This document shows positions 33,323 to 48,685 of a stretch of 64,000 nt of DNA, in pieces. Location: assembly GCF_004345725.1 (NCBI RefSeq), contig NZ_SLXG01000009.1:1-64000 (forward strand), read 5' to 3'. Origin of the DNA: Crenobacter luteus. Its GTDB lineage: Bacteria; Pseudomonadota; Gammaproteobacteria; Burkholderiales; Chromobacteriaceae. Each line of letters begins with the position of its first letter. The first letter of the stretch is position 1. The position numbers and the translations under genes are program-made. Below the pieces are notes generated by a model. That model searched no databases and was not told the origin of the DNA. It saw only the letters and a program-made list of their open reading frames with translations.

Positions 33323-37760
<4,438 letters not shown>

Positions 37761-37954: not shown

Positions 37955-40390
37955 ATGCCGAAGTTCATCGTGAAGGGGGTCGCAGCCAGCCTGGTTTGTC
38001 TGTCGCTGCCGACGTTCGCCGCACCGCTGTGGAAACAACCCGGCTACGAACAGGCGATCCGCGCGGCACGCGACGGCGCCCCGTCCGCCGCGCTCGCCAT
38101 GCTCGAGCCGCTCCACCAGGCGGGCACGCTGCAGCAGCCACTGCTCGACGACTACCTGACCCTGCTCGTTTGGGACCAGCGCGGCGAAGAGGCCATCGCC
38201 CTTCTCGAGCACCGCTACCCGCCCGCCTCCCTCGGCCAAGACGCGCTGAACACACTGGCGCGCTACCAGCGCGATCGAAACAGGCTTGCGCAAGCCGAAG
38301 CGCTGTACAGAGCGTCGCTGGCCAGACGGCCGACCGCCACCGCCCAGGCCGGCCTGGCGATGACCTTGGCCGAAGCGGGCCAGGCCGGCGCCGGCCTGGC
38401 CCTACTCGACGCGACGCCGGCGCGTACCCCGGCCGACCGGCTGACCCTGGACCGCGCCAGAGCCTACCTGCTGACCTTCTCCGAGGAGCACACGGCCGCG
38501 CTCGGCCAGCTCGAAACCCTGCTCGAACGACACCCGGACGACCCCGAGCTCGCCCGCGCCTACACCACCTTGCTGGTGCGCATGGGCGCCCCGCACCAGG
38601 CCTACGCCTACCTGAAAAGCCGGCGTGTCGAAGCACCCGAGCTCTACAAGCAGCTCTCCCTCGACAAGGCGGCAACCGCCACCCGCTGGGGACGCAGCGA
38701 GACCCGGCTGGAAGTCGGCGAGAGCCGCTTCCGGCAGACCGATGCCGCGCTGGCGCTCAACGAGGGCATCACCCGGAGCCTCCACCCCGAAGACGCGACC
38801 TACATGAAAACCGCGATCGCGGACCGGCTCGTCATGCTGGAGCAGCGCGCCCGTTATCGCGATACGGTCGCCCTTTACCGGCAACACGAGAACGATGCCT
38901 TGCCCGCCTACGCGCTGGCCGCCGCGGCCAGCGCGTATCTGGCCGAGGAAAATCCGCAAGAGGCGATCCGCCTGTCCAAGCTCGCGATGGCCGACATGCC
39001 GCGCCAGCGCGCCCCCATCGACTGGCGTATCGTCCTCGTCTACGCCCATCTCGAGGCCGAACAACCCAAGGAGGCGCGCGACGAGGTCGAACGGCTCAAG
39101 CAAGACGTGCAGCGCATCCGCCACGACGCCGCCAGCGGCCAGAACCGCTACAACCCCGACTACCAGCAGGTCATGCTGCTGGACGCGATGCTGGACGCCT
39201 ACGTTGGCCGAACCCACGTCGCACGGGCCAAGCTGGACACCCTGCTCGACGACGCGCCGTTCAACGGCGAACTGCGGCAGAACGACGGCGAACTGGAACT
39301 GCTGCGCGGTCACCCGCGCACGGCGGAAGGCATCTTCGCCCGCCGGCTGGTCGACGAGCCACGCGCGGTAGAAGCCAAGCGCGGCCTTGCCGTCGCCTAT
39401 CTGGACACCCACCGTTATTCTGATGCACCGGCGCTGATTGCCGACGTCGTCGCGCTGGCGCCGGAAAGCCGCGCAACCCAGCGCCTGTCCGAACGCTGGC
39501 GGTGGAGCAACCGCCCGCAGCTGGTCGTCGACGCCGAACACGAGCTGTCGGGCGGGCAAGGCGAAGGGCTGGACAGCGGCTGGGCCGTCGAGACCCGCCT
39601 CTACAGCGCGCTGATCGCGTCGCAATGGCGCATCTTCGCCCGCTCGTACAACGCGCGCGCCGACTACGTCGGCGATGGCCGGCTCAGCCGGGACACCCTG
39701 GGCTTCGGCGCCGAATACCGCGATCCGCGCTGGCAGGCCGAGGCGGCGCTCACCGGCAGCCTCGACGGCCGCAACGACACCGGCGGCCTGCTCGCGCTGA
39801 CCCGCACCTTCGACGACAGGTTCAGCCTCGGCCTGCGCTACGAGCACGACAGCGACGAGGTCCCGATGCGCGCACGCCGCGACAACGTCGACGGCAAACG
39901 GCTGGCGGCTGAATTCAGCTACCGCGTCGACGACCAGCGCCGCTTCGACGCGGCCCTGTCCGGCCTCGACCTCAGCGACGGCAACCTGCGGCAACGCCTG
40001 CGCACCTCGTGGACCGAGCGCTGGATCGCACAACCCACCTATACGCTGGACACCATTCTCTCGGCCGGCGCCAGCAAGAACCGCAACGTCGTCGGCACCA
40101 ACTACTTCAACCCGGGCAAGGACAGCGAAGTCGGCGTGACCGTGCTGCCGGACTGGCTGCTCTGGCGCCGCTACGACACCAGCCTCCGGCACCGGCTTGG
40201 CCTGTACGCAGCCAATTACTGGCAGGAGGGCTACGGCAGCAAACTCGCCTCGGCAGTCTTCTACGAGCACGAATGGCGCTGGACGCCGCGGGCCGGACTA
40301 CGTTACGGCTTCGCCCACAGCGTCCACCCCTACGACGGCGATAGCGATGTGAGCAACCGCCTCTATCTCAACCTCGACTGGCGCTTCTGA
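37955..40390 (+). CDS. pgaA: PgaA, outer-membrane PNAG export porin
   Basis: 811 residues. Signal peptide ending LPTFAAPLW, a periplasmic TPR superhelix (roughly residues 30-500) and a C-terminal beta-barrel ending LYLNLDWRF with a terminal Phe. This is the PgaA layout: TPRs bind partially deacetylated poly-beta-1,6-N-acetylglucosamine (PNAG) and PgaB, and the barrel exports the polymer. The ATG at 37955 begins the signal peptide. The 150 bp upstream are markedly AT-rich. pgaB follows two bases after the stop. It is the only pgaA for two downstream pgaBCD sets. Confidence 0.93.
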   Translation: MPKFIVKGVAASLVCLSLPTFAAPLWKQPGYEQAIRAARDGAPSAALAMLEPLHQAGTLQQPLLDDYLTLLVWDQRGEEAIALLEHRYPPASLGQDALNTLARYQRDRNRLAQAEALYRASLARRPTATAQAGLAMTLAEAGQAGAGLALLDATPARTPADRLTLDRARAYLLTFSEEHTAALGQLETLLERHPDDPELARAYTTLLVRMGAPHQAYAYLKSRRVEAPELYKQLSLDKAATATRWGRSETRLEVGESRFRQTDAALALNEGITRSLHPEDATYMKTAIADRLVMLEQRARYRDTVALYRQHENDALPAYALAAAASAYLAEENPQEAIRLSKLAMADMPRQRAPIDWRIVLVYAHLEAEQPKEARDEVERLKQDVQRIRHDAASGQNRYNPDYQQVMLLDAMLDAYVGRTHVARAKLDTLLDDAPFNGELRQNDGELELLRGHPRTAEGIFARRLVDEPRAVEAKRGLAVAYLDTHRYSDAPALIADVVALAPESRATQRLSERWRWSNRPQLVVDAEHELSGGQGEGLDSGWAVETRLYSALIASQWRIFARSYNARADYVGDGRLSRDTLGFGAEYRDPRWQAEAALTGSLDGRNDTGGLLALTRTFDDRFSLGLRYEHDSDEVPMRARRDNVDGKRLAAEFSYRVDDQRRFDAALSGLDLSDGNLRQRLRTSWTERWIAQPTYTLDTILSAGASKNRNVVGTNYFNPGKDSEVGVTVLPDWLLWRRYDTSLRHRLGLYAANYWQEGYGSKLASAVFYEHEWRWTPRAGLRYGFAHSVHPYDGDSDVSNRLYLNLDWRF

Positions 40391-40392
40391 TC

Positions 40393-42171
40393 ATGAAAAT
40401 CCGCCTCTGGAAACTTTGCCTGATCGCCGCTCTGGGGATCGCCCCCTTCGTCCCGGCACAAGCGGCCTCGAAGCTGATCGCGCTGTGCTACCACGAGGTG
40501 GTCCACAATCAACCGCCCAGCGACCCCTTCGCCGTCGACACCCGCAGCCTCGTCGACCACCTGGAGTGGCTGCGCGCGCACGGCTACACCTTCGTCGGCA
40601 TGAACGACGTGCTCGCCGAGCGCGAAGGGCGCCGCCCCCTGCCCGAGAAAGCGGTCCTGCTGACTTTCGACGATGGCTACCGCAGCCTCTACAAGCATGT
40701 CTTCCCCATCCTCAAACTCTACAAGGCACCCGCCGTGGTCGCCCTCGTCGGCGGCTGGCTCGAAGAAGCCAAGGGAGCCGAGATCCCGGGTACCCGTCTG
40801 GTCCGCGAGGATTTCCTGATGCCGGAGGAAATCCGCGAAATGCAGGCCAGCGGGCTGATCGAATTCGCCAACCACAGCCACGACCTGCACCGCGGCATCC
40901 TGGCCAACCCGCAGGGCAACGTGCAACCGGCCGCCACGGCGCTGCGCTTCGAGGGGACACGCTACGAATCGCTCGCCGACCAGCAACGCCGCGTCGCGAC
41001 CGACCTGGCGCGCAACAACGCCACCATCGAAAAGCTCACCGGCAAGAAACCGCGCATCATGGTCTGGCCGTACGGCAGCTATTCGCAACCGCTGCTCGAG
41101 ATCGCTCGCCGCAACGGCATGCCGATCACGCTGACCCTGAACGACGGCGTCAACGAACGCTCGACGCCGCTGGCCGAGCTGCGCCGCGTACTCGTCGACG
41201 CCAATATGACGCTGACCGACTTCGCCAACGAAATCCGGGTGCGCGAACACGAGCAGGACGGCCTTCCGCCCGCCTTCACCCGCGCGATGCACGTTTCTCT
41301 CGACCAGATATACGACCCCGACCCGGCCGCGCAGGAACACAAGCTCGGCCAACTCCTCGACCGGGTGCTGGAGATGGGCGCGACCGTCGTCTACCTGCAG
41401 GCGGACGGCGATGCCGACGGCGACGGCCAGCCCGACACGGTGTACTTCCCGAACCGACACGTACCGATGCGGGCGGACCTGTTCAACCGGGCCGCCTGGC
41501 AACTGAGGACCCGCGCGATGGTCCAGGTCTACGCCAGCCTCCCCCTGCAATCGTTCGGACTCGCAGACCGCACCATGGTCGCGGCAGCACCCGGCGCACG
41601 CGAGCGGCGTGTGGCCCGCGAACTGGTCGAAGACCTCGGCGCCTCGGCGCGCTTCACCGGCCTGCTGCTGCGCGACGACCCCGGCAAACCCGCCTTGGCC
41701 GAGCCCGGCGCCAACGCCCTGCTCGAACTCGCCTCGGAACAGTTCAGTACCGCGCGCACCTACCAGCCCGAGTTCAAATCGGTGATCACCGTCTACGCCG
41801 GCCGGCTGGGAAACGATGGTGAAGCCTCCCGCCTCTCCGACGCCATGGCCAAGGCGCTGCCGCGCGTCGACTACGTCGAACTGGCCCCGGCCAGCGGCAC
41901 ACCGGCCGACGAAACCTGGCTGCGGCAGGCATTCGCCGTCGCATCGGCCAGCACGCCGCAACCGTCCCGGAAGATCGTGTTCGGACTGCCCAGCCGCGAC
42001 GCTTCCGGCCTGCGGGCGCTAGACAGCCGCAGCCTGGCTCGCGCCATCACCACGCTGCACACCCTGGGCGCGCATCACATCGCCTACACCCACGACGAAG
42101 GCATCGACAGGCAGCCGCACCTGGCAACGCTGAAACGGGCCTTCTCGCTGCGCAGCCAGCCCGAACGATGA
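40393..42171 (+). CDS. pgaB: PgaB, PNAG N-deacetylase (set 1), hydrolase domain degenerate
   Basis: 592 residues. Signal peptide (cleavage near AQAASK), without a lipobox, unlike E. coli PgaB. The NodB-like deacetylase domain (about 30-270) keeps CYHEV, LTFDDGY and the metal-binding His pair in NHSHDLHRG. The C-terminal domain aligns with the GH153 hydrolase domain of PgaB but differs at its acidic motifs: HVSLDQIYD instead of HVDLDYLYD in the second copy, and LLLRDDPGKPA instead of LLFHDDVTLSDYED. It is also about 60 residues shorter. I infer deacetylation of PNAG without efficient glycan cleavage. Periplasmic partner of PgaA. Confidence 0.9.
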   Translation: MKIRLWKLCLIAALGIAPFVPAQAASKLIALCYHEVVHNQPPSDPFAVDTRSLVDHLEWLRAHGYTFVGMNDVLAEREGRRPLPEKAVLLTFDDGYRSLYKHVFPILKLYKAPAVVALVGGWLEEAKGAEIPGTRLVREDFLMPEEIREMQASGLIEFANHSHDLHRGILANPQGNVQPAATALRFEGTRYESLADQQRRVATDLARNNATIEKLTGKKPRIMVWPYGSYSQPLLEIARRNGMPITLTLNDGVNERSTPLAELRRVLVDANMTLTDFANEIRVREHEQDGLPPAFTRAMHVSLDQIYDPDPAAQEHKLGQLLDRVLEMGATVVYLQADGDADGDGQPDTVYFPNRHVPMRADLFNRAAWQLRTRAMVQVYASLPLQSFGLADRTMVAAAPGARERRVARELVEDLGASARFTGLLLRDDPGKPALAEPGANALLELASEQFSTARTYQPEFKSVITVYAGRLGNDGEASRLSDAMAKALPRVDYVELAPASGTPADETWLRQAFAVASASTPQPSRKIVFGLPSRDASGLRALDSRSLARAITTLHTLGAHHIAYTHDEGIDRQPHLATLKRAFSLRSQPER

Positions 42172-42186
42172 ATGGAGGGATAGACC

Positions 42187-43461
42187 ATGTTTCCGCTCCC
42201 CGTAGATTTCCTGCACTGGGTCTGGGTCGCCCTGCTCGGCTATGCCTTCTACTACCCGCTGTTCATGGCCTATCTGTGGATGGTCGGCGCCCTGCACTAT
42301 TACTTCCACTACGAGCGGAAAGAACCGCCGCTGGATGAACCGCCGGAGCTGGACTACCCGCCGATCAGCATCCTGATCCCGTGCTTCAACGAGGAAGACA
42401 ACCTCGCCGACACCCTGCGCTACGCCCTCGCCGTCGACTATCCGGAATTCGAAGTCGTCGCGATCAACGACGGCAGCACCGACGCCACCGCCCGGCTGCT
42501 CGACGAGGCGGCGCAACGAGACCCCAGACTGCGCGTCGTCCATCTGGCGGAAAACCAGGGCAAGGCGGTCGCGCTGAACACCGGCTGTCTGCTCGCGAAG
42601 CACGAGCACCTCGTCTGCATCGACGGCGACGCCCTGCTCGAGCCGCACGCCCCGAAATGGCTGGTAAGGCAGCTCATCGGCAGCCCCCGGGTCGGCGCGG
42701 TCACCGGCAACCCGCGCATCCGCAACCGCTCCACCTTGCTCGGCAAGGTCCAGGTCGGCGAGTTCTCGTCGATCATCGGCATCATCAAGCGCGCGCAACG
42801 CACCTACGGGCGCCTGTTCACCCTCTCCGGCGTGATCGCCGGCTTTCGCAAGACGGCGGTGCGACAGGCCGGCTACTGGAGCGACGACGTCCTGACCGAG
42901 GATATCGACATGAGCTGGAAGCTCCAGCTCGCGCACTGGGACGTCCGTTTCGAGCCCCACGCCCAAGCCTGGATCCTGATGCCCGAGACGCTCAAAGGCC
43001 TCTGGAAACAGCGGCTGCGCTGGGCCAAGGGCGGTCTGCAGGTCCTCCTGCGCAACGCGGGCGCCATCGGAAGCTGGCAGAAGCGCCGCATGTGGCCGAT
43101 CTACGCCGAGTATCTGTTCAGCGCGATCTGGGCCTACGTGATGGCGCTGCTTGTCGTGGTCTGGGCTCTCGGTCTGCTGCTGCCGCAGTTCGGGTGGATG
43201 CAGATGTCGTCCCCGCTGCTTCCAGGCTGGCATGGTCTGGTGCTCGGGATGACCTGCCTGTTCCAGTTCATGCTCAGCAAGTGGCTGGATCGGCGCTACG
43301 ATTTCGGCACCGGACGCAACTTCTTCTGGATGATCTGGTATCCGCTGGTGTTCTGGATGATTCACATCGTCACCACCGTCGTCGCGCTGCCGCAAGCCAT
43401 CACGCACAGCCGTGGCCTGCGCGCACGCTGGACGAGTCCCGACAGGGGGGTCAAAGCATGA
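42187..43461 (+). CDS. pgaC: PgaC, PNAG synthase glycosyltransferase (set 1)
   Basis: 424 residues, inner-membrane family 2 processive glycosyltransferase. Two N-terminal helices, then the cytoplasmic GT-A domain with INDGST, CIDGDALL, TEDIDMSWKLQ and QRLRWAKGG (QxxRW), then C-terminal helices. It polymerises UDP-GlcNAc into PNAG with PgaD under c-di-GMP control. It starts 15 bp after pgaB and overlaps pgaD by 4 bp. No dispersed motif copy lies in it. Confidence 0.95.
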   Translation: MFPLPVDFLHWVWVALLGYAFYYPLFMAYLWMVGALHYYFHYERKEPPLDEPPELDYPPISILIPCFNEEDNLADTLRYALAVDYPEFEVVAINDGSTDATARLLDEAAQRDPRLRVVHLAENQGKAVALNTGCLLAKHEHLVCIDGDALLEPHAPKWLVRQLIGSPRVGAVTGNPRIRNRSTLLGKVQVGEFSSIIGIIKRAQRTYGRLFTLSGVIAGFRKTAVRQAGYWSDDVLTEDIDMSWKLQLAHWDVRFEPHAQAWILMPETLKGLWKQRLRWAKGGLQVLLRNAGAIGSWQKRRMWPIYAEYLFSAIWAYVMALLVVVWALGLLLPQFGWMQMSSPLLPGWHGLVLGMTCLFQFMLSKWLDRRYDFGTGRNFFWMIWYPLVFWMIHIVTTVVALPQAITHSRGLRARWTSPDRGVKA

Positions 43462-43898
43462 AAGACACCATCATCAACGCCGAGCACCGGATCGGAGCAA
43501 CCAAACGCTTCGCGGCACGCTCCCTCACCGCGCTGCTCTGGCTGCTGTGGGCCTATCTCTGCCTGCCCGTACTGAGCGTCCTGGCGTGGCTGGCGGGCGT
43601 CAAGCTCTTCTACGAGGAGATGCTGGTGCGCGAAGGCGTCGACAAGCTGTTCAGCCTGATGCTCGTCTACGCCATCGTGATCGGGGCGACAAGCGGGCTG
43701 CTGATCCTGTGGGCCCGCCTCAACTACCGGCGGTTCCACAATCGCGAGAAACGGCGCCGGGTCGCCGATGCGACGCCCGACGAGCTGGCTGCCGACTACC
43801 GGCTCTCCGCGTCCGACCTGCTCGCCGCACAGCAGACGCAGACGGTTGTCGTCCACCATTCCGACCGCGGCCACGTCGTCAGGATTGTCCGACGCTGA
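43458..43898 (+). CDS. pgaD: PgaD, PNAG synthase accessory subunit (set 1)
   Basis: 146 residues with two transmembrane helices (LTALLWLLWAYLCLPVLSVL and a second near 75-95). The conserved C-terminal stretch VVVHHSDRGHVVRIVRR recurs in the second copy. In E. coli PgaD with PgaC forms the c-di-GMP receptor that activates synthesis. Overlaps pgaC by ATGA; followed by a terminator. Confidence 0.9.
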   Translation: MKDTIINAEHRIGATKRFAARSLTALLWLLWAYLCLPVLSVLAWLAGVKLFYEEMLVREGVDKLFSLMLVYAIVIGATSGLLILWARLNYRRFHNREKRRRVADATPDELAADYRLSASDLLAAQQTQTVVVHHSDRGHVVRIVRR

Positions 43899-43902
43899 GC
43901 CC

Positions 43903-43929
43903 GCCCCGCCCGACCGGGCGGGGCATTTT
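43903..43929 (+). terminator. terminator after the first pga set
   Basis: Perfect 9-bp stem GCCCCGCCC/GGGCGGGGC with GACC loop, then ATTTT. It separates the two sets, so the second needs its own promoter; a TAGAAT hexamer at 44028-44033 could be its -10 box. Confidence 0.88.
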
Positions 43930-44124
43930 GTCGCCGCAACGACGCAGCCAGCCGCCCTTCCCCGTTCGCCTTCGCCCCCGGTAACAATCGGATACCGTCC
44001 CCCACCATGCGCGCCGCGCCGGCTTGCTAGAATCCGCGCGGACTGCTGACGCCGGCGTGGCGCCCAACCACCCCCGCCACCCCGGCCAAACAGCCACCCG
44101 CAACCCGACCCCGGTCATCTCGAC

Positions 44125-46080
44125 ATGCGACGCATACTGACCCTCATTCTGGGCCTGCTGGCCCTGACAACCCTGCAAGCCGCCAACGCCCAGCGGCTCC
44201 ACATCCTGAACTACCACGAGATCGCCAACCCGGCCGACGCCCGTATACCCGCCTACGCGGTCTCGCCGACCAACTTCGTGCGCCAGCTCGACTGGCTGAA
44301 AAACAACGGCTACCGCTTCGTCGGCATCGACGAATTGCTGGCCGACCGCGCCGGCGGCAAGCCGCTGCCGGATAAAGCCGTGTTGATCACCTTCGACGAC
44401 GGCTACGAGAACTTTTACACCCAGGCCTACCCGGTGCTGAAGATGTTCGGAGCGCCGGCCGTGGTTTCGCTGGTGGGCAGTTGGCTGGAACCGTCCGGCG
44501 GGCAGGTTCGCTACGGCGACGAGATGGCGCCGCGCAGCGCCTTCCTGTCCTGGGCGCAGATCCGCCAGATGCAGGCCGAAGGGTTGGTCGAATTCGCCAG
44601 CCATAGCTACGCGCTGCACGAGGGGGTCTCGGCCAACCCGCAGGGCAACAGCCAGCCGGCGGCGACGACCCGCCGCTACCGGGCCGGCCGTTACGAGACG
44701 CCGCGCGAGCAGCTGCGACGCGTCGAGGCCGACCTCGCGCGCAACAACGCGCTGCTGCGCAAGATGACCGGCCGCAGCCCGCGCGTGATGGTCTGGCCGT
44801 ACGGCAGCTACAGCCGCGACGTCGCCGAGGCGGCTGACCGCCAGGGCATGCCGGTCGGCCTGACGCTCGACGACGGCCCCAACGACCGCACCACGCCATT
44901 GTGGAAGCTGCGCCGCCTGCTGATGGAGAGCTCGACCACGCTGCCCGACCTGGCCCGCGAGCTGGCGCTGCGCGAGCGCGACACGCCCGTCAGCGAACGC
45001 CCCGGCAAGATCATGCACGTCGACCTCGACTATCTGTACGACCCGGACCCGGCGCAGACCGAGCGCAATATCGGCCTGCTGCTCGACCGCATCACCGCGA
45101 TGGGCGTGAACACCGTCTACCTGCAGGCCTTTTCCGACCCGGACGGCAACGGCGCGGCCGACGCGGCCTACTTCCCGAACCGCCACCTGCCGGTCCGCGC
45201 CGACCTGTTCAACCGCGTCGCCTGGCAGATCAAGAAGCGCACGCCGGTCAAGGCGGTCTACGCATGGATGCCGATGCTGGCGTTCGAGCTGCCCAAAGCC
45301 CATCCGGCCGCCCGCGACGTCGTCGTCACGCGCCCGCACGCGGCCACCGGCCACGTCGCGATGGGCTATCCGCGCCTGTCGCCGTTCTCGCCGCGCGCGC
45401 GCCGCGTCATCCGCGAGATTTTCGACGACCTGGGTCGCGCCGCGCCGTTCGAAGGCCTGCTGTTCCACGACGACGTGACGCTGTCCGACTACGAGGACGC
45501 CAGCCCGGCCGCGCTGGCCACCTACCGTCGCTGGGGCCTGCCCGACGACATCGAGGCGCTGCGCGGCGACGACGACCTGCTCGGCCGCTGGACCATCCTC
45601 AAGATCAACGCGCTCGACGCCTTCGCACGCGAGTTGGCCGACGTGGTGCGCATCTCCCACCCGGCGCTCAAGACCGCGCGCAACCTGTACGCGCAGGTCG
45701 TGCTGAACCCGCGCGCGGAAACCTGGTACGCACAGTCGCTCGACAACTCGCTGGCGAACTACGACTACACCGCGATCATGGCGATGCCGTATATGGAAAA
45801 TGCCGAAGACCCGGCGCGCTTCATGCAGGACCTCTTCGAGCGCGTCGCCGAGCACCCCGGCGCGCTCGACAAGACGGTGTTCGAACTGCAGGCAACCGAC
45901 TGGCGCCATGGCCGGGCGGTGCCGAACGCGGAGTTGGCCGAGACCATCCGCACGCTCTACCGGCGCGGCGCCCGCCACGTCGGCTACTACCCGGACGACC
46001 CGTTCAAGGGCCACCCGGACCCGGCGACGCTACGCGACGCCTTCGCGACCATGAGCCCCACCGGGCAGTTGCAACCGTAA
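44125..46080 (+). CDS. pgaB: PgaB, PNAG N-deacetylase/hydrolase (set 2), complete
   Basis: 651 residues. Signal peptide MRRILTLILGLLALTTLQAANA. Deacetylase domain with NYHEI, ITFDDGY and HSYALHEG. The GH153-like C-terminal domain is complete, with KIMHVDLDYLYDPDP, YLQAFSDPDGNG and LLFHDDVTLSDYEDAS, the acidic residues expected of the hydrolase. Clearly paralogous to the copy at 40393, so the two arose by duplication and diverged. It can both deacetylate and cut PNAG by family knowledge. Confidence 0.92.
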   Translation: MRRILTLILGLLALTTLQAANAQRLHILNYHEIANPADARIPAYAVSPTNFVRQLDWLKNNGYRFVGIDELLADRAGGKPLPDKAVLITFDDGYENFYTQAYPVLKMFGAPAVVSLVGSWLEPSGGQVRYGDEMAPRSAFLSWAQIRQMQAEGLVEFASHSYALHEGVSANPQGNSQPAATTRRYRAGRYETPREQLRRVEADLARNNALLRKMTGRSPRVMVWPYGSYSRDVAEAADRQGMPVGLTLDDGPNDRTTPLWKLRRLLMESSTTLPDLARELALRERDTPVSERPGKIMHVDLDYLYDPDPAQTERNIGLLLDRITAMGVNTVYLQAFSDPDGNGAADAAYFPNRHLPVRADLFNRVAWQIKKRTPVKAVYAWMPMLAFELPKAHPAARDVVVTRPHAATGHVAMGYPRLSPFSPRARRVIREIFDDLGRAAPFEGLLFHDDVTLSDYEDASPAALATYRRWGLPDDIEALRGDDDLLGRWTILKINALDAFARELADVVRISHPALKTARNLYAQVVLNPRAETWYAQSLDNSLANYDYTAIMAMPYMENAEDPARFMQDLFERVAEHPGALDKTVFELQATDWRHGRAVPNAELAETIRTLYRRGARHVGYYPDDPFKGHPDPATLRDAFATMSPTGQLQP

Positions 46081-46092
46081 GGCCGCCGACCG

Positions 46093-47358
46093 ATGAATCC
46101 GACCCTTTCGTCGCTGTGGGGCTTCCTGCTCGGCTACGTCTTTTACTACCCGCTGCTGATGTCTTACCTGTGGATGCTCGGCGCGGCCCTCTACTACTGG
46201 CGGCGCGAACGCTTCGACCCGCCGTTCCGCCAGCCGGTGCGGCGGCCGGACAGCCCGCCCGTCAGCGTGCTGATCCCCTGCTACAACGAGGGCGACAACG
46301 CCGAGGAGACCGTGTTGCAGGCGCTCGCGCTCGACTACCCCGAGTTCGAGGTGATCGCGATCAACGACGGCAGTCGCGACAACACCGGCGCGGTACTCGA
46401 CCGCCTCGCCGCGCAACAGCCACGACTGAAAGTCGTGCATCTGGCCCAGAACCAGGGCAAGGCGGTGGCGCTGACCAGCGGCAGTCTGCTCGCGCGGTAC
46501 GACATCCTGCTGTGCATCGACGGCGACGCGCTGCTCGATGCGCGCGCCGCGCACTGGCTGGTGCGCCACTTCGTCGACAAGCCGAGGATGGGCGCGGTGA
46601 CCGGCAACCCGCGCATCCGCAACCGCTCGACGCTGCTCGGGCGCGTACAGGTCGGCGAGTTCTCGTCCATCGTCGGCATGATCAAGCGCGCGCAGATGAG
46701 CTACGGCCGGCTGTTCACCGTGTCGGGCGTCATCACCGCCTTTCGCAAGCGCGCGCTGCGCGACGTCGGTTACTGGAGCAGCGACATGATGACCGAGGAC
46801 ATCGACATCTCGTGGAAGCTGCAGCGGCGCGGCTGGGACATCGCCTTCGAGCCGAACGCGCTGGTGTGGATCCTGATGCCCGAAACGCTCAAGGGTCTGT
46901 GGAAGCAGCGGTTGCGCTGGGCGCAGGGCGGCGCGCAGGTGCTCCTGAAGAACGCCGACGTGCTCGGCCAACCCCGGCTCGCCAGCCTGTGGCCGCTCTA
47001 CGTCGAGTACAGCCTCAGCGTCGCCTGGTCCTACGCGATGCTGCTGCTGACGCTGCTGTGGCTGCTCGACGCGTTAGCCCCGGCCGGCCTGCTGCCGGCG
47101 CTCGACTCGCCGCTGCTGCCGGCCTCGAACGGCCTGCTGCTCGGCGCCACCTGTCTGGCGCAGTTCGCGCTGTCCAAATGGCTGGACAGCCGCTACGACC
47201 GCGGGCTGGGCCGCAATTACTACTGGATGATCTGGTACCCGTTGGTGTTCTGGATCATCAACACCGCGACCACCGTCGCCGCCCTCCCGAAGGCGCTGCT
47301 GCGCCGGCGCGGCCAGCGCGCGCGCTGGATCAGCCCCGACCGCGGCATCCGCGCCTGA
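46093..47358 (+). CDS. pgaC: PgaC, PNAG synthase glycosyltransferase (set 2)
   Basis: 421 residues with all family 2 motifs intact (INDGSRDNTG, CIDGDALLD, TEDIDISWKLQ, QRLRWAQGG). Extensively similar along its length to the first copy (shared FYYPL, YLWM, GNPRIRNRSTLLG, WMIWYPLVFW). Twelve bases after pgaB copy 2. Both copies look catalytically competent. Confidence 0.95.
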   Translation: MNPTLSSLWGFLLGYVFYYPLLMSYLWMLGAALYYWRRERFDPPFRQPVRRPDSPPVSVLIPCYNEGDNAEETVLQALALDYPEFEVIAINDGSRDNTGAVLDRLAAQQPRLKVVHLAQNQGKAVALTSGSLLARYDILLCIDGDALLDARAAHWLVRHFVDKPRMGAVTGNPRIRNRSTLLGRVQVGEFSSIVGMIKRAQMSYGRLFTVSGVITAFRKRALRDVGYWSSDMMTEDIDISWKLQRRGWDIAFEPNALVWILMPETLKGLWKQRLRWAQGGAQVLLKNADVLGQPRLASLWPLYVEYSLSVAWSYAMLLLTLLWLLDALAPAGLLPALDSPLLPASNGLLLGATCLAQFALSKWLDSRYDRGLGRNYYWMIWYPLVFWIINTATTVAALPKALLRRRGQRARWISPDRGIRA

Positions 47359-47384
47359 AACCGACCGACCCCGAATCCGACGCC

Positions 47385-47831
47385 ATGGAAACTTCAAGCC
47401 TGATCATCGACGCCCGCCACCACCTGACCCGGCCGCAGCGCCTGCTGTCACGCGGCCTCACCGCGCTGCTGTGGGGACTGTGGCTCTCGCTGTGGCTGCC
47501 GGCACTCGGCCTGCTCGCCCGGCTGGGCGGCCTGCGCGGCCTGCTGTACCTTGTGGCTCAGCCGGCCGCCTACCGTCTGCCGCACACGCTGTCCGGCCAC
47601 CTGCTGACGCTGCTGGCGACCGCCGGCGCGCTCGGGCTGTGGGCCCGGCTGAGCCAGCGTCGCCCGCCGGCCGAACCGCGCCCCCATGAGCGGGAACCGT
47701 CGCCGACCGACTACGCGCGCGATCTCGGCGCCGACCCGGACCAGGTCGCGGCCGGCCGCGACGCCGCCATCGTCGTCGTCCACCACGACAATACGGGGCG
47801 CATCGTCGCCATCGAAGCCCGCCCGCGCTGA
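47385..47831 (+). CDS. pgaD: PgaD, PNAG synthase accessory subunit (set 2)
   Basis: 148 residues, two transmembrane helices, a Pro/Arg/Glu-rich linker and the conserved tail AAIVVVHHDNTGRIVAIEARPR matching copy 1. The N-terminal ALLWGLWLSLWLPALGLLARL also matches. 26 bp after pgaC copy 2. Ends the second set, which has no pgaA. Confidence 0.85.
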   Translation: METSSLIIDARHHLTRPQRLLSRGLTALLWGLWLSLWLPALGLLARLGGLRGLLYLVAQPAAYRLPHTLSGHLLTLLATAGALGLWARLSQRRPPAEPRPHEREPSPTDYARDLGADPDQVAAGRDAAIVVVHHDNTGRIVAIEARPR

Positions 47832-47893: not shown

Positions 47894-48685
47894 TTACTTC
47901 CAGAACTTCCACCACGGCATTTCCTCGACCGACCACGCCTTTTGCAGATAGGCGCTGTTCGGGTAGTTGAGCGCCAGCACGCGGCGCGCGTCGTCGCCCA
48001 GCGGCTTCATGCCCAGCTTGTCGTAGGCGGACACCATCAGCGCCAGCGCCTCCTCGACGAACGGCGTGTTGGCGTACTCCTTGACGACCGACTGCGCGCG
48101 GTTGGCGGCGGCCAGGTAGGCGCCGCGCTTCATGTAATAACGCGCGACGTGCATCTCGTGTCCGCCCAGCGCGTTGACCAGCTTGAGCATCTTGTCGCGC
48201 GCGTCCGGCGCGTACTGGCTGTCCGGGAAGCGCGACACCAGCTCGCGGAACGCCAGGAAGGCCTCGCGGGTCGCCTTGGGGTCGCGCTCGGACAGATCCT
48301 GGCCGGCCCACTTGGCCAGCACCGAGCTGTCGTCGTTGTAATAGACCAGCCCCTTCAGGTAGTAGATGTAGTCGAGGTTGGCGTGCGCCGGATGCAGCTT
48401 GATGAAGCGGTCGGCCGCGGCGATCGCCTGCTCGGGCTCGCCGTCCTTGTAATGGGTGTAGGCCAGGTCCATCTGGGCCTGCTGCGCGTAGCGGCCGTAC
48501 GGAAAACGCGCCTCGAGCGTTTCGTAGAGCTTGATGGCGCGCGTATAATTACCGCTATTGAGTTCGTCACGGGCCTCGCTGTAGAGCTTCTCGACCGTCC
48601 AGCCCCGTGTTTCATCCTTGGGTTCCGTGGTCGCGCAAGCGGCCAAACCCAACGCCAGCAACGTTGCAGCAACAATTTTCTTCAT
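47894..48685 (-). CDS. bamD: BamD, outer-membrane protein assembly lipoprotein
   Basis: 263 residues. Lipoprotein signal with lipobox LAAC (Cys17). Five TPR-like repeats, with LYSEARDELNSGNYTRAIKLYETLEARFPYGR as the first and SQYAPDARDKM later. BamD is the essential partner of BamA in inserting beta-barrel proteins. Its ATG overlaps the ATG of the divergent rluD by two bases (TTCATGAG), so each gene's upstream signals lie in the other's coding sequence. Confidence 0.96.
   Translation of the reverse strand: MKKIVAATLLALGLAACATTEPKDETRGWTVEKLYSEARDELNSGNYTRAIKLYETLEARFPYGRYAQQAQMDLAYTHYKDGEPEQAIAAADRFIKLHPAHANLDYIYYLKGLVYYNDDSSVLAKWAGQDLSERDPKATREAFLAFRELVSRFPDSQYAPDARDKMLKLVNALGGHEMHVARYYMKRGAYLAAANRAQSVVKEYANTPFVEEALALMVSAYDKLGMKPLGDDARRVLALNYPNSAYLQKAWSVEEMPWWKFWK

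Follow-up and report, generated by a model that had tools for sequence, protein, structure and literature searches.

Two tandem pga gene sets in Crenobacter luteus as possible different PNAG-type machines

The closest described systems to the locus reported here are the pgaABCD (bpsABCD) operons of Escherichia coli and Bordetella, for poly-N-acetylglucosamine (PNAG), and the two pga operons of Acinetobacter baumannii, which are a known precedent for two operons in one genome. AbPgaB1, encoded by the A. baumannii operon that lacks pgaA, is a PNAG deacetylase that supports biofilm where the strain has pgaA as well, and the authors assume one PgaA shared by both operons (PMC9935895). The part of E. 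coli PgaB that binds PgaA is the deacetylase domain (PMC9384988). Bundalovic-Torma 2020 describes a pga operon duplicated in part in A. baumannii, cases of pgaA loss, and operons of the Thauera type in which neither pgaA nor pgaD is detectable (PMC7112194), and a soil A. baumannii is said to lack pgaA (PMC6563999). Here we analyse a 64,000-nucleotide stretch of Crenobacter luteus (contig NZ_SLXG01000009.1, positions 1 to 64,000; hereafter the window), in whose genome (G000; 2.86 Mb, 57 contigs) seven same-direction genes lie between glnB and bamD at 37955-47831: pgaA-pgaB1-pgaC1-pgaD1 (set 1), a hairpin, and pgaB2-pgaC2-pgaD2 (set 2).

We propose with moderate confidence, from sequence evidence, that these are two different PNAG-type machines in tandem, set 1 exporting uncut PNAG and set 2 using its own PgaB to cut its polymer, with no dedicated PgaA needed. 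PgaB1 would deacetylate but not cut, and the product of set 1 is most likely a partly deacetylated PNAG, controlled by cyclic di-GMP (c-di-GMP), that exits via PgaA uncut; such control is proposed because PgaC1 keeps R222 and PgaD1 keeps N75. The set 2 polymer would be deacetylated and cut by PgaB2, and the places where the hydrolase is retained suggest that set 2 depends on this cutting. In bacteria without pgaA, cutting by PgaB would enable release or clearance of the product. PgaB2 could additionally cut set 1 polymer in the window genome, the periplasm being the expected place of action for both.

Layout, descent and genomic site of the two sets

Set 1 assembles porin, deacetylase, GT2 synthase and PgaD in one gene run, as in the canonical pgaABCD operon. 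It consists of pgaA (37955..40390; TIGR03939 621.6 bits, PgaA_barrel 167 bits), pgaB1 (40393..42171), pgaC1 (42187..43461; TIGR03937 601.6 bits) and pgaD1 (43458..43898; TIGR03940 104.4 bits), and in a whole-genome profile search this pgaA alone scored above the cut-off of the PNAG porin family. Set 2 comprises pgaB2 (44125..46080; TIGR03938 821.5 bits), pgaC2 (46093..47358; TIGR03937 615.4 bits) and pgaD2 (47385..47831; TIGR03940 109.1 bits, scored from an upstream start at 47358). All are on the forward strand and exceed their NCBIfam cut-offs (TIGR03939 once; TIGR03938, TIGR03937 and TIGR03940 twice each), so that a complete PNAG operon followed by a second pgaB-pgaC-pgaD in the same order, as an earlier sequence-only reading of this DNA had described it, is confirmed. 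We picked the pgaA and pgaD start codons within listed open frames. The gene directly 5' of pgaB2 is pgaD1, not pgaA, and the pgaA of set 1 ends ~3.7 kb upstream. The terminator placed between the sets by the same reading survives as a consensus-matching hairpin of nine G-C pairs (43903..43924, forward strand); hairpin-type matches in the window are not enriched (8, against a mean of 6.9 in shuffles), and the same inter-set gap in G001, from the same genus, has only a weak hairpin on the coding strand. A search for promoter-like sites gave none.

The two sets are, as judged from their sequences, deep paralogues. Identity between them is 63% for PgaC, 45% for PgaB and 36% for PgaD, and both synthases keep their catalytic motifs, as claimed earlier, sharing DGS, DGD, TED and QRLRW, which we take to be the named GT2 synthase motifs. 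We built quick trees of PgaC (74 rows) and of the PgaB deacetylase domain (76 rows), with support from the SH-aLRT test only. Twenty-eight PgaC rows labelled as accompanied by pgaA (pgaA+) form one clade with a single row labelled pgaA-less (starred support of 100), and PgaC2 falls outside it; the odd row, L170, actually carries pgaA. PgaB2 lies within a clade of 48 rows (starred support of 99), 46 of them pgaA-less PgaBs and two orphans, and PgaB1 clusters with the pgaABCD PgaBs of its own family.

On these trees we reject the idea that one set arose by copying of the other. The sequence-only reading had seen an old and kept duplication, to be dated by phylogeny of PgaB, PgaC and PgaD. Its age and its keeping stand, since the one further genome of the genus compared, G001, has the tandem pair as well; a copying of one operon to give the other, however, is not supported by the PgaB and PgaC trees, and each set's counterpart at the site in other genera is a different operon. 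The opposite case, acquisition of the second set from a distant lineage, comes near to what the trees give, but set 2 does not look recently acquired from outside, its place at this site being shared by family members. The position of PgaC2 near the pgaA+ clade in the tree prompted a search for gene conversion between pgaC1 and pgaC2, which is not claimed, because no alignment window has PgaC2 nearer to PgaC1; it is nearer to the Pseudogulbenkiania copy in 21 of 21 windows of 40 columns.

The site is bordered on the left by a P-II gene that we take from its sequence to be glnB (37422..37759, forward strand; matched in 61/61 family genomes) and on the right by a gene likewise taken to be bamD (47894..48685, reverse strand; 59/61). 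By our reading of match positions, these convergent genes lie at most 250 bp apart on one contig in 32 of the 61 genomes, have pga genes between them in seven and 0.5-3.7 kb of other DNA in ten, stand far apart in four, and in eight are on different contigs or have bamD unmatched. The gap is ~4.1-4.2 kb and holds pgaBCD in Gulbenkiania mobilis (G037) and Pseudogulbenkiania (G045, G047), ~6.5 kb with pgaABCD in G035 and G036, and ~10.1-10.4 kb with both in the window and G001. By genus, two thus carry pgaBCD, one pgaABCD, and the window's genus both; among 22 other genomes compared at the site, ten gaps measure 51-125 bp and one 242 bp. An unrooted five-protein tree places the window's genus on the same side as the pgaABCD genus (98/99). 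Either both sets were there early and were differentially lost, or one set joined the other at this site. The glnB-bamD gap may be a recurrent insertion site.

Among relatives, other DNA of 1.2-3.7 kb occupies the gap in L187, L191 and L195 (g3) and in L182 and L192 (g4). The two Pseudogulbenkiania-genus genomes G045 and G047 also have an orphan pgaB with an eroded GH153 domain (L045:5984-7825 and L047:6180-8132), with no pgaC found adjoining.

Hydrolase and c-di-GMP residues

The sequence-only reading had missed that PgaB1 falls short of a complete two-domain PgaB. The GHL13/GH153 model matches PgaB2, a complete two-domain protein, end to end (501 bits; domain at ~45016-45990) and PgaB1 in two pieces (181 bits in total; eroded domain at ~41290-42156), whose GH153 domain is ~60 residues shorter, with loops gone. 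At the active-site positions D326, D328, D364, H473, D474 and E585, with roles taken from Bordetella PgaB (PMC5933820), PgaB2 keeps every residue and has a complete site; PgaB1 reads S, D, D, R, D and P and lacks the canonical GH153 active site (D326S, H473R, E585 lost). From this erosion we infer that PgaB1 works as a deacetylase and that its hydrolase has lost all or nearly all activity. Both proteins keep five deacetylase positions (H, D, D, H, H), whose roles we presume, and PgaB1 has an open frame and an intact deacetylase site in both genus genomes and in a third copy in G001. That copy belongs to a third set elsewhere in the G001 genome (L041:3186-9065), a set-1-type pgaABCD with an eroded PgaB. 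The AlphaFold model of PgaB1 (mean pLDDT 81.6, pTM 0.80) came from an 18-row alignment including intact relatives, which may favour a barrel; its C-terminal half can still be laid over the barrel of the E. coli structure 4p7o (Z 31.9, 282 residues, rmsd 2.6), and pLDDT falls below 50 at 389-400, coinciding with an alignment gap.

The sets differ too at residues connected with c-di-GMP. In a review table, R222A in PgaC is entered under c-di-GMP binding (PMC10333796). The equivalent residue is R in PgaC1 and M in PgaC2 of both genus genomes. Across the collection it is R in 32/34 pgaA+ and 63/80 pgaA-less PgaCs, so its loss is a trait of this genus's set 2, not of the whole lineage. In PgaD we take N75 and K76 to be c-di-GMP positions, which are N and Y in PgaD1, S and Q in PgaD2. 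N75 is kept by 28 of 34 pgaA+ PgaDs versus 9 of 76 pgaA-less ones; K76 is uninformative, being nearly absent from both (1/34 and 1/76). Earlier suggestions that the two synthases could differ in c-di-GMP response and in polymer modification thus gain support at the sequence level, from R222 to M in PgaC2 and N75 to S in PgaD2 for the one and from a GH153 site eroded in PgaB1 and intact in PgaB2 for the other.

The pgaA-less lineage and retention of the hydrolase

Set-2-type pgaBCD operons are widespread and occur, among the best 80 of 550 relatives ranked against full-length PgaB2, in Acinetobacter, other Moraxellaceae, Lysobacter, Anaeromyxobacter, Campylobacterota and cyanobacterial bins. 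With a home-made profile, PgaA was detected in three of these 80 loci (L095, L103, L148), some loci ending at contig ends. In a profile search at E<=1e-20, pgaA was absent from 33 of 50 genomes with such operons, many of them drafts or bins, with L096 (G373) and L097 (G374) from records titled complete chromosomes; the 17 genomes with pgaA are mostly Acinetobacter having pgaABCD elsewhere. In G037, G045, G046 and G047, set-2-type pgaBCD follows glnB with no pgaA over the cut-off, and a search for a PgaA-like porin elsewhere in these genomes gave weak partial matches only. Neighbours of pgaA-less operons vary between genomes. Around 22 of these operons, 83 of 131 neighbouring open reading frames were scanned and gave 101 Pfam families, and the 25 commonest of these include no porin. 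Set 2 belongs with this lineage by its PgaB in the pgaA-less clade, its PgaC outside the pgaA+ clade, the absence of an upstream pgaA of its own and its complete GH153 domain.

Frames of 866-886 residues directly 5' of three pgaA-less operons were tried as porins and proved to be aconitase B, and another is pyruvate kinase. The PgaA open frames of L095 and L103 run to ~1045-1060 residues. Two PgaC matches of the class-wide sample described below, L201 and L212, exceed the family cut-off, but no PgaB or PgaA was found near them in the stretch examined. For GT2 loci of G000 (C12) and its relatives, open reading frame calls were ambiguous because the DNA is GC-rich.

We aligned 122 PgaBs, whose rows are not independent (kin are repeated, and G037 and Pseudogulbenkiania subflava appear twice). 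The H473-D474 pair is present in 13 of 32 PgaBs beside pgaA (19 lack it), in one of three orphans, in both GH153-only rows and in 85 of 85 pgaA-less PgaBs, a count that is biased, most of its rows coming from the best 80 of 550 relatives and kin being counted repeatedly. On the PgaB tree the GH153 site has been lost repeatedly, with six changes. Other samples are less biased. PgaB exceeds the cut-off in 26 of 61 family genomes, and each of the five with at least two PgaBs carries an eroded copy and an intact copy; among the 21 with a single PgaB, the pair is kept in 18 (five with D364N), G035 and G036 have eroded copies and G044 a broken one. A class-wide sample of 369 genomes, drawn via PgaC to escape the ranking bias and covering PgaBs beside PgaC matches with partner PgaBs outside its scope, has five of 16 PgaBs beside pgaA without the pair and a single pgaA-less operon with pgaB (L208), in which the pair is intact.

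Of 119 genomes of Acinetobacter, the genus of G381, searched irrespective of the GH domain, 76 encode a full-length PgaB, 49 a deacetylase-only PgaB and at least 21 a free-standing GH153. None of the 49 lacks a second source of the hydrolase domain, which is a full-length PgaB in 41 and, where that is missing, a free-standing GH153 in 8. In the ten genomes covered by this search and by the 50-genome pgaA search, the distance from the deacetylase-only match to pgaA is 96-132 bp, and the full-length one does not adjoin pgaA. Free-standing GH153 genes (GHL13 ~365 bits, no deacetylase match) stand convergent with pgaABCD at L154:15049-16497 and L155:2856-4100, both Acinetobacter.

The pattern has the look of a natural experiment, in which the hydrolase site was lost several times beside the porin, kept in all examined pgaA-less copies, and is sometimes a separate gene in Acinetobacter. 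The biological role of PgaB hydrolase activity has been stated as unknown (PMC7112194); with an eroded PgaB next to an intact one in the same genome, the question becomes testable. Our data also suggest that a PNAG-like product may be made even by Gram-negatives that lack pgaA.

Weighing the readings against known systems

Several points weigh against two different machines. The tree makes PgaC2 the sister of the pgaA+ clade (93, unstarred) and separates it from its expected Gulbenkiania and Pseudogulbenkiania kin, and PgaC2 and PgaD2 could, for all their substitutions, bind c-di-GMP through other residues. The predicted PgaB1 barrel may retain a polymer-binding role, since D474 is kept and AlphaFold still yields a C-terminal barrel. 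A porin encoded away from the operon is possible in pgaA-less genomes, our scan having covered neighbours. Eroded pgaA-less PgaBs could have been ranked out, because the ranking used full-length PgaB2; L094, L127 and L147 begin less than 100 bases from a contig end, with the upstream gene out of view; and the Acinetobacter linkage to pgaA is positional and confined to the ten shared genomes. Eight same-order genomes have an eroded PgaB beside pgaA and no second PgaB match (G035 and G036 at E<=1e-3; G155, G187, G344, G253, G340 and G337 at E<=1e-60, G337 being eroded by H473S alone). They refute a general rule that an eroded PgaB needs an intact partner, a rule that holds in the Acinetobacter rows.

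The same eight genomes speak against a reading that we consider improbable, in which PgaB2 chiefly replaces in trans the hydrolase lost from PgaB1 and the rest of set 2 is secondary; PgaC2 and PgaD2 are, moreover, complete. In its favour, among Acinetobacter genomes with a deacetylase-only PgaB, free-standing GH153 occurs in 8/8 without a full-length PgaB versus at least 10/41 with one (Fisher p 1e-4, uncorrected for kinship), the family genomes with several PgaBs pair eroded and intact copies in five of five cases, and in Alkanindiges (L095:9872-18715) and a Moraxellaceae bin (L103:9872-18860) pgaACD, with no pgaB found, stands convergent with a complete pgaBCD. Somewhat less doubtful, though still tentative, is a single PgaA shared by both synthase sets, with PgaB1 and PgaB2 docking on it and the polymers differing in cutting and c-di-GMP control. 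The window genome has one pgaA, the domain corresponding to the PgaA-binding deacetylase domain of E. coli (PMC9384988) has an intact site in both PgaBs, and loss of AbPgaB1 lowers biofilm in a pgaA-bearing A. baumannii strain (PMC9935895). However, PgaA is not a general requirement of the set 2 type, because no pgaA was found in those 33 of 50 carrier genomes, and set 2 occupies the same site in two other genera without pgaA. That PgaB1 is merely decaying, with one set silent or redundant, would fit the repeated losses of the GH153 site, but we regard it as very unlikely given the preserved PgaB1 frames and deacetylase sites in this genus, the G001 third copy included, and the remaining genes, which are open frames with family matches over cut-off.

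We therefore retain the proposal of two different machines as the one we favour. A broader idea, which we put forward only as a possibility that may well prove wrong, is that pgaBCD without pgaA constitutes a separate, porin-independent pathway for beta-1,6-glucosamine oligosaccharides. The GH153 domain of PgaB would be obligatory there because no dedicated exporter drains the polymer, and PgaA-coupled PgaBs would be free to lose it. If so, the window shows both kinds side by side.

No paper describing a cross-genus pgaBCD lineage without pgaA turned up by title or abstract in the open-licence literature, single cases being in print, and an unspecific search turned up none on Crenobacter luteus itself. 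The available text of PMC7112194 describes neither a lineage of pgaBCD with full PgaB across phyla nor GH153 erosion tied to pgaA, and its Thauera-type PgaBs, lacking a hydrolase domain and fused to glycosyltransferase domains, are unlike set 2. The E. coli and Bordetella operons correspond to set 1 in gene order, deacetylase site, GT2 motifs, PgaD and a PgaA porin with tetratricopeptide repeats. Their PgaB has a GH153 domain of shown activity (PMC5933820), whereas PgaB1 is without D326, H473, E585 and ~60 residues; E. coli PgaB also has a lipobox-like cysteine near its N-terminus, and none is seen by eye in PgaB1 or PgaB2. A further parallel is A. baumannii, which has, as the window does, one operon of each type, pgaBCD (A1S_0938-0940) and pgaABCD (A1S_2162-2159), standing apart where those of the window are adjacent (PMC9935895). 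In all nine other Acinetobacter pgaABCD loci that we analysed PgaB is eroded, and the pgaBCD copies of the same genus are intact.

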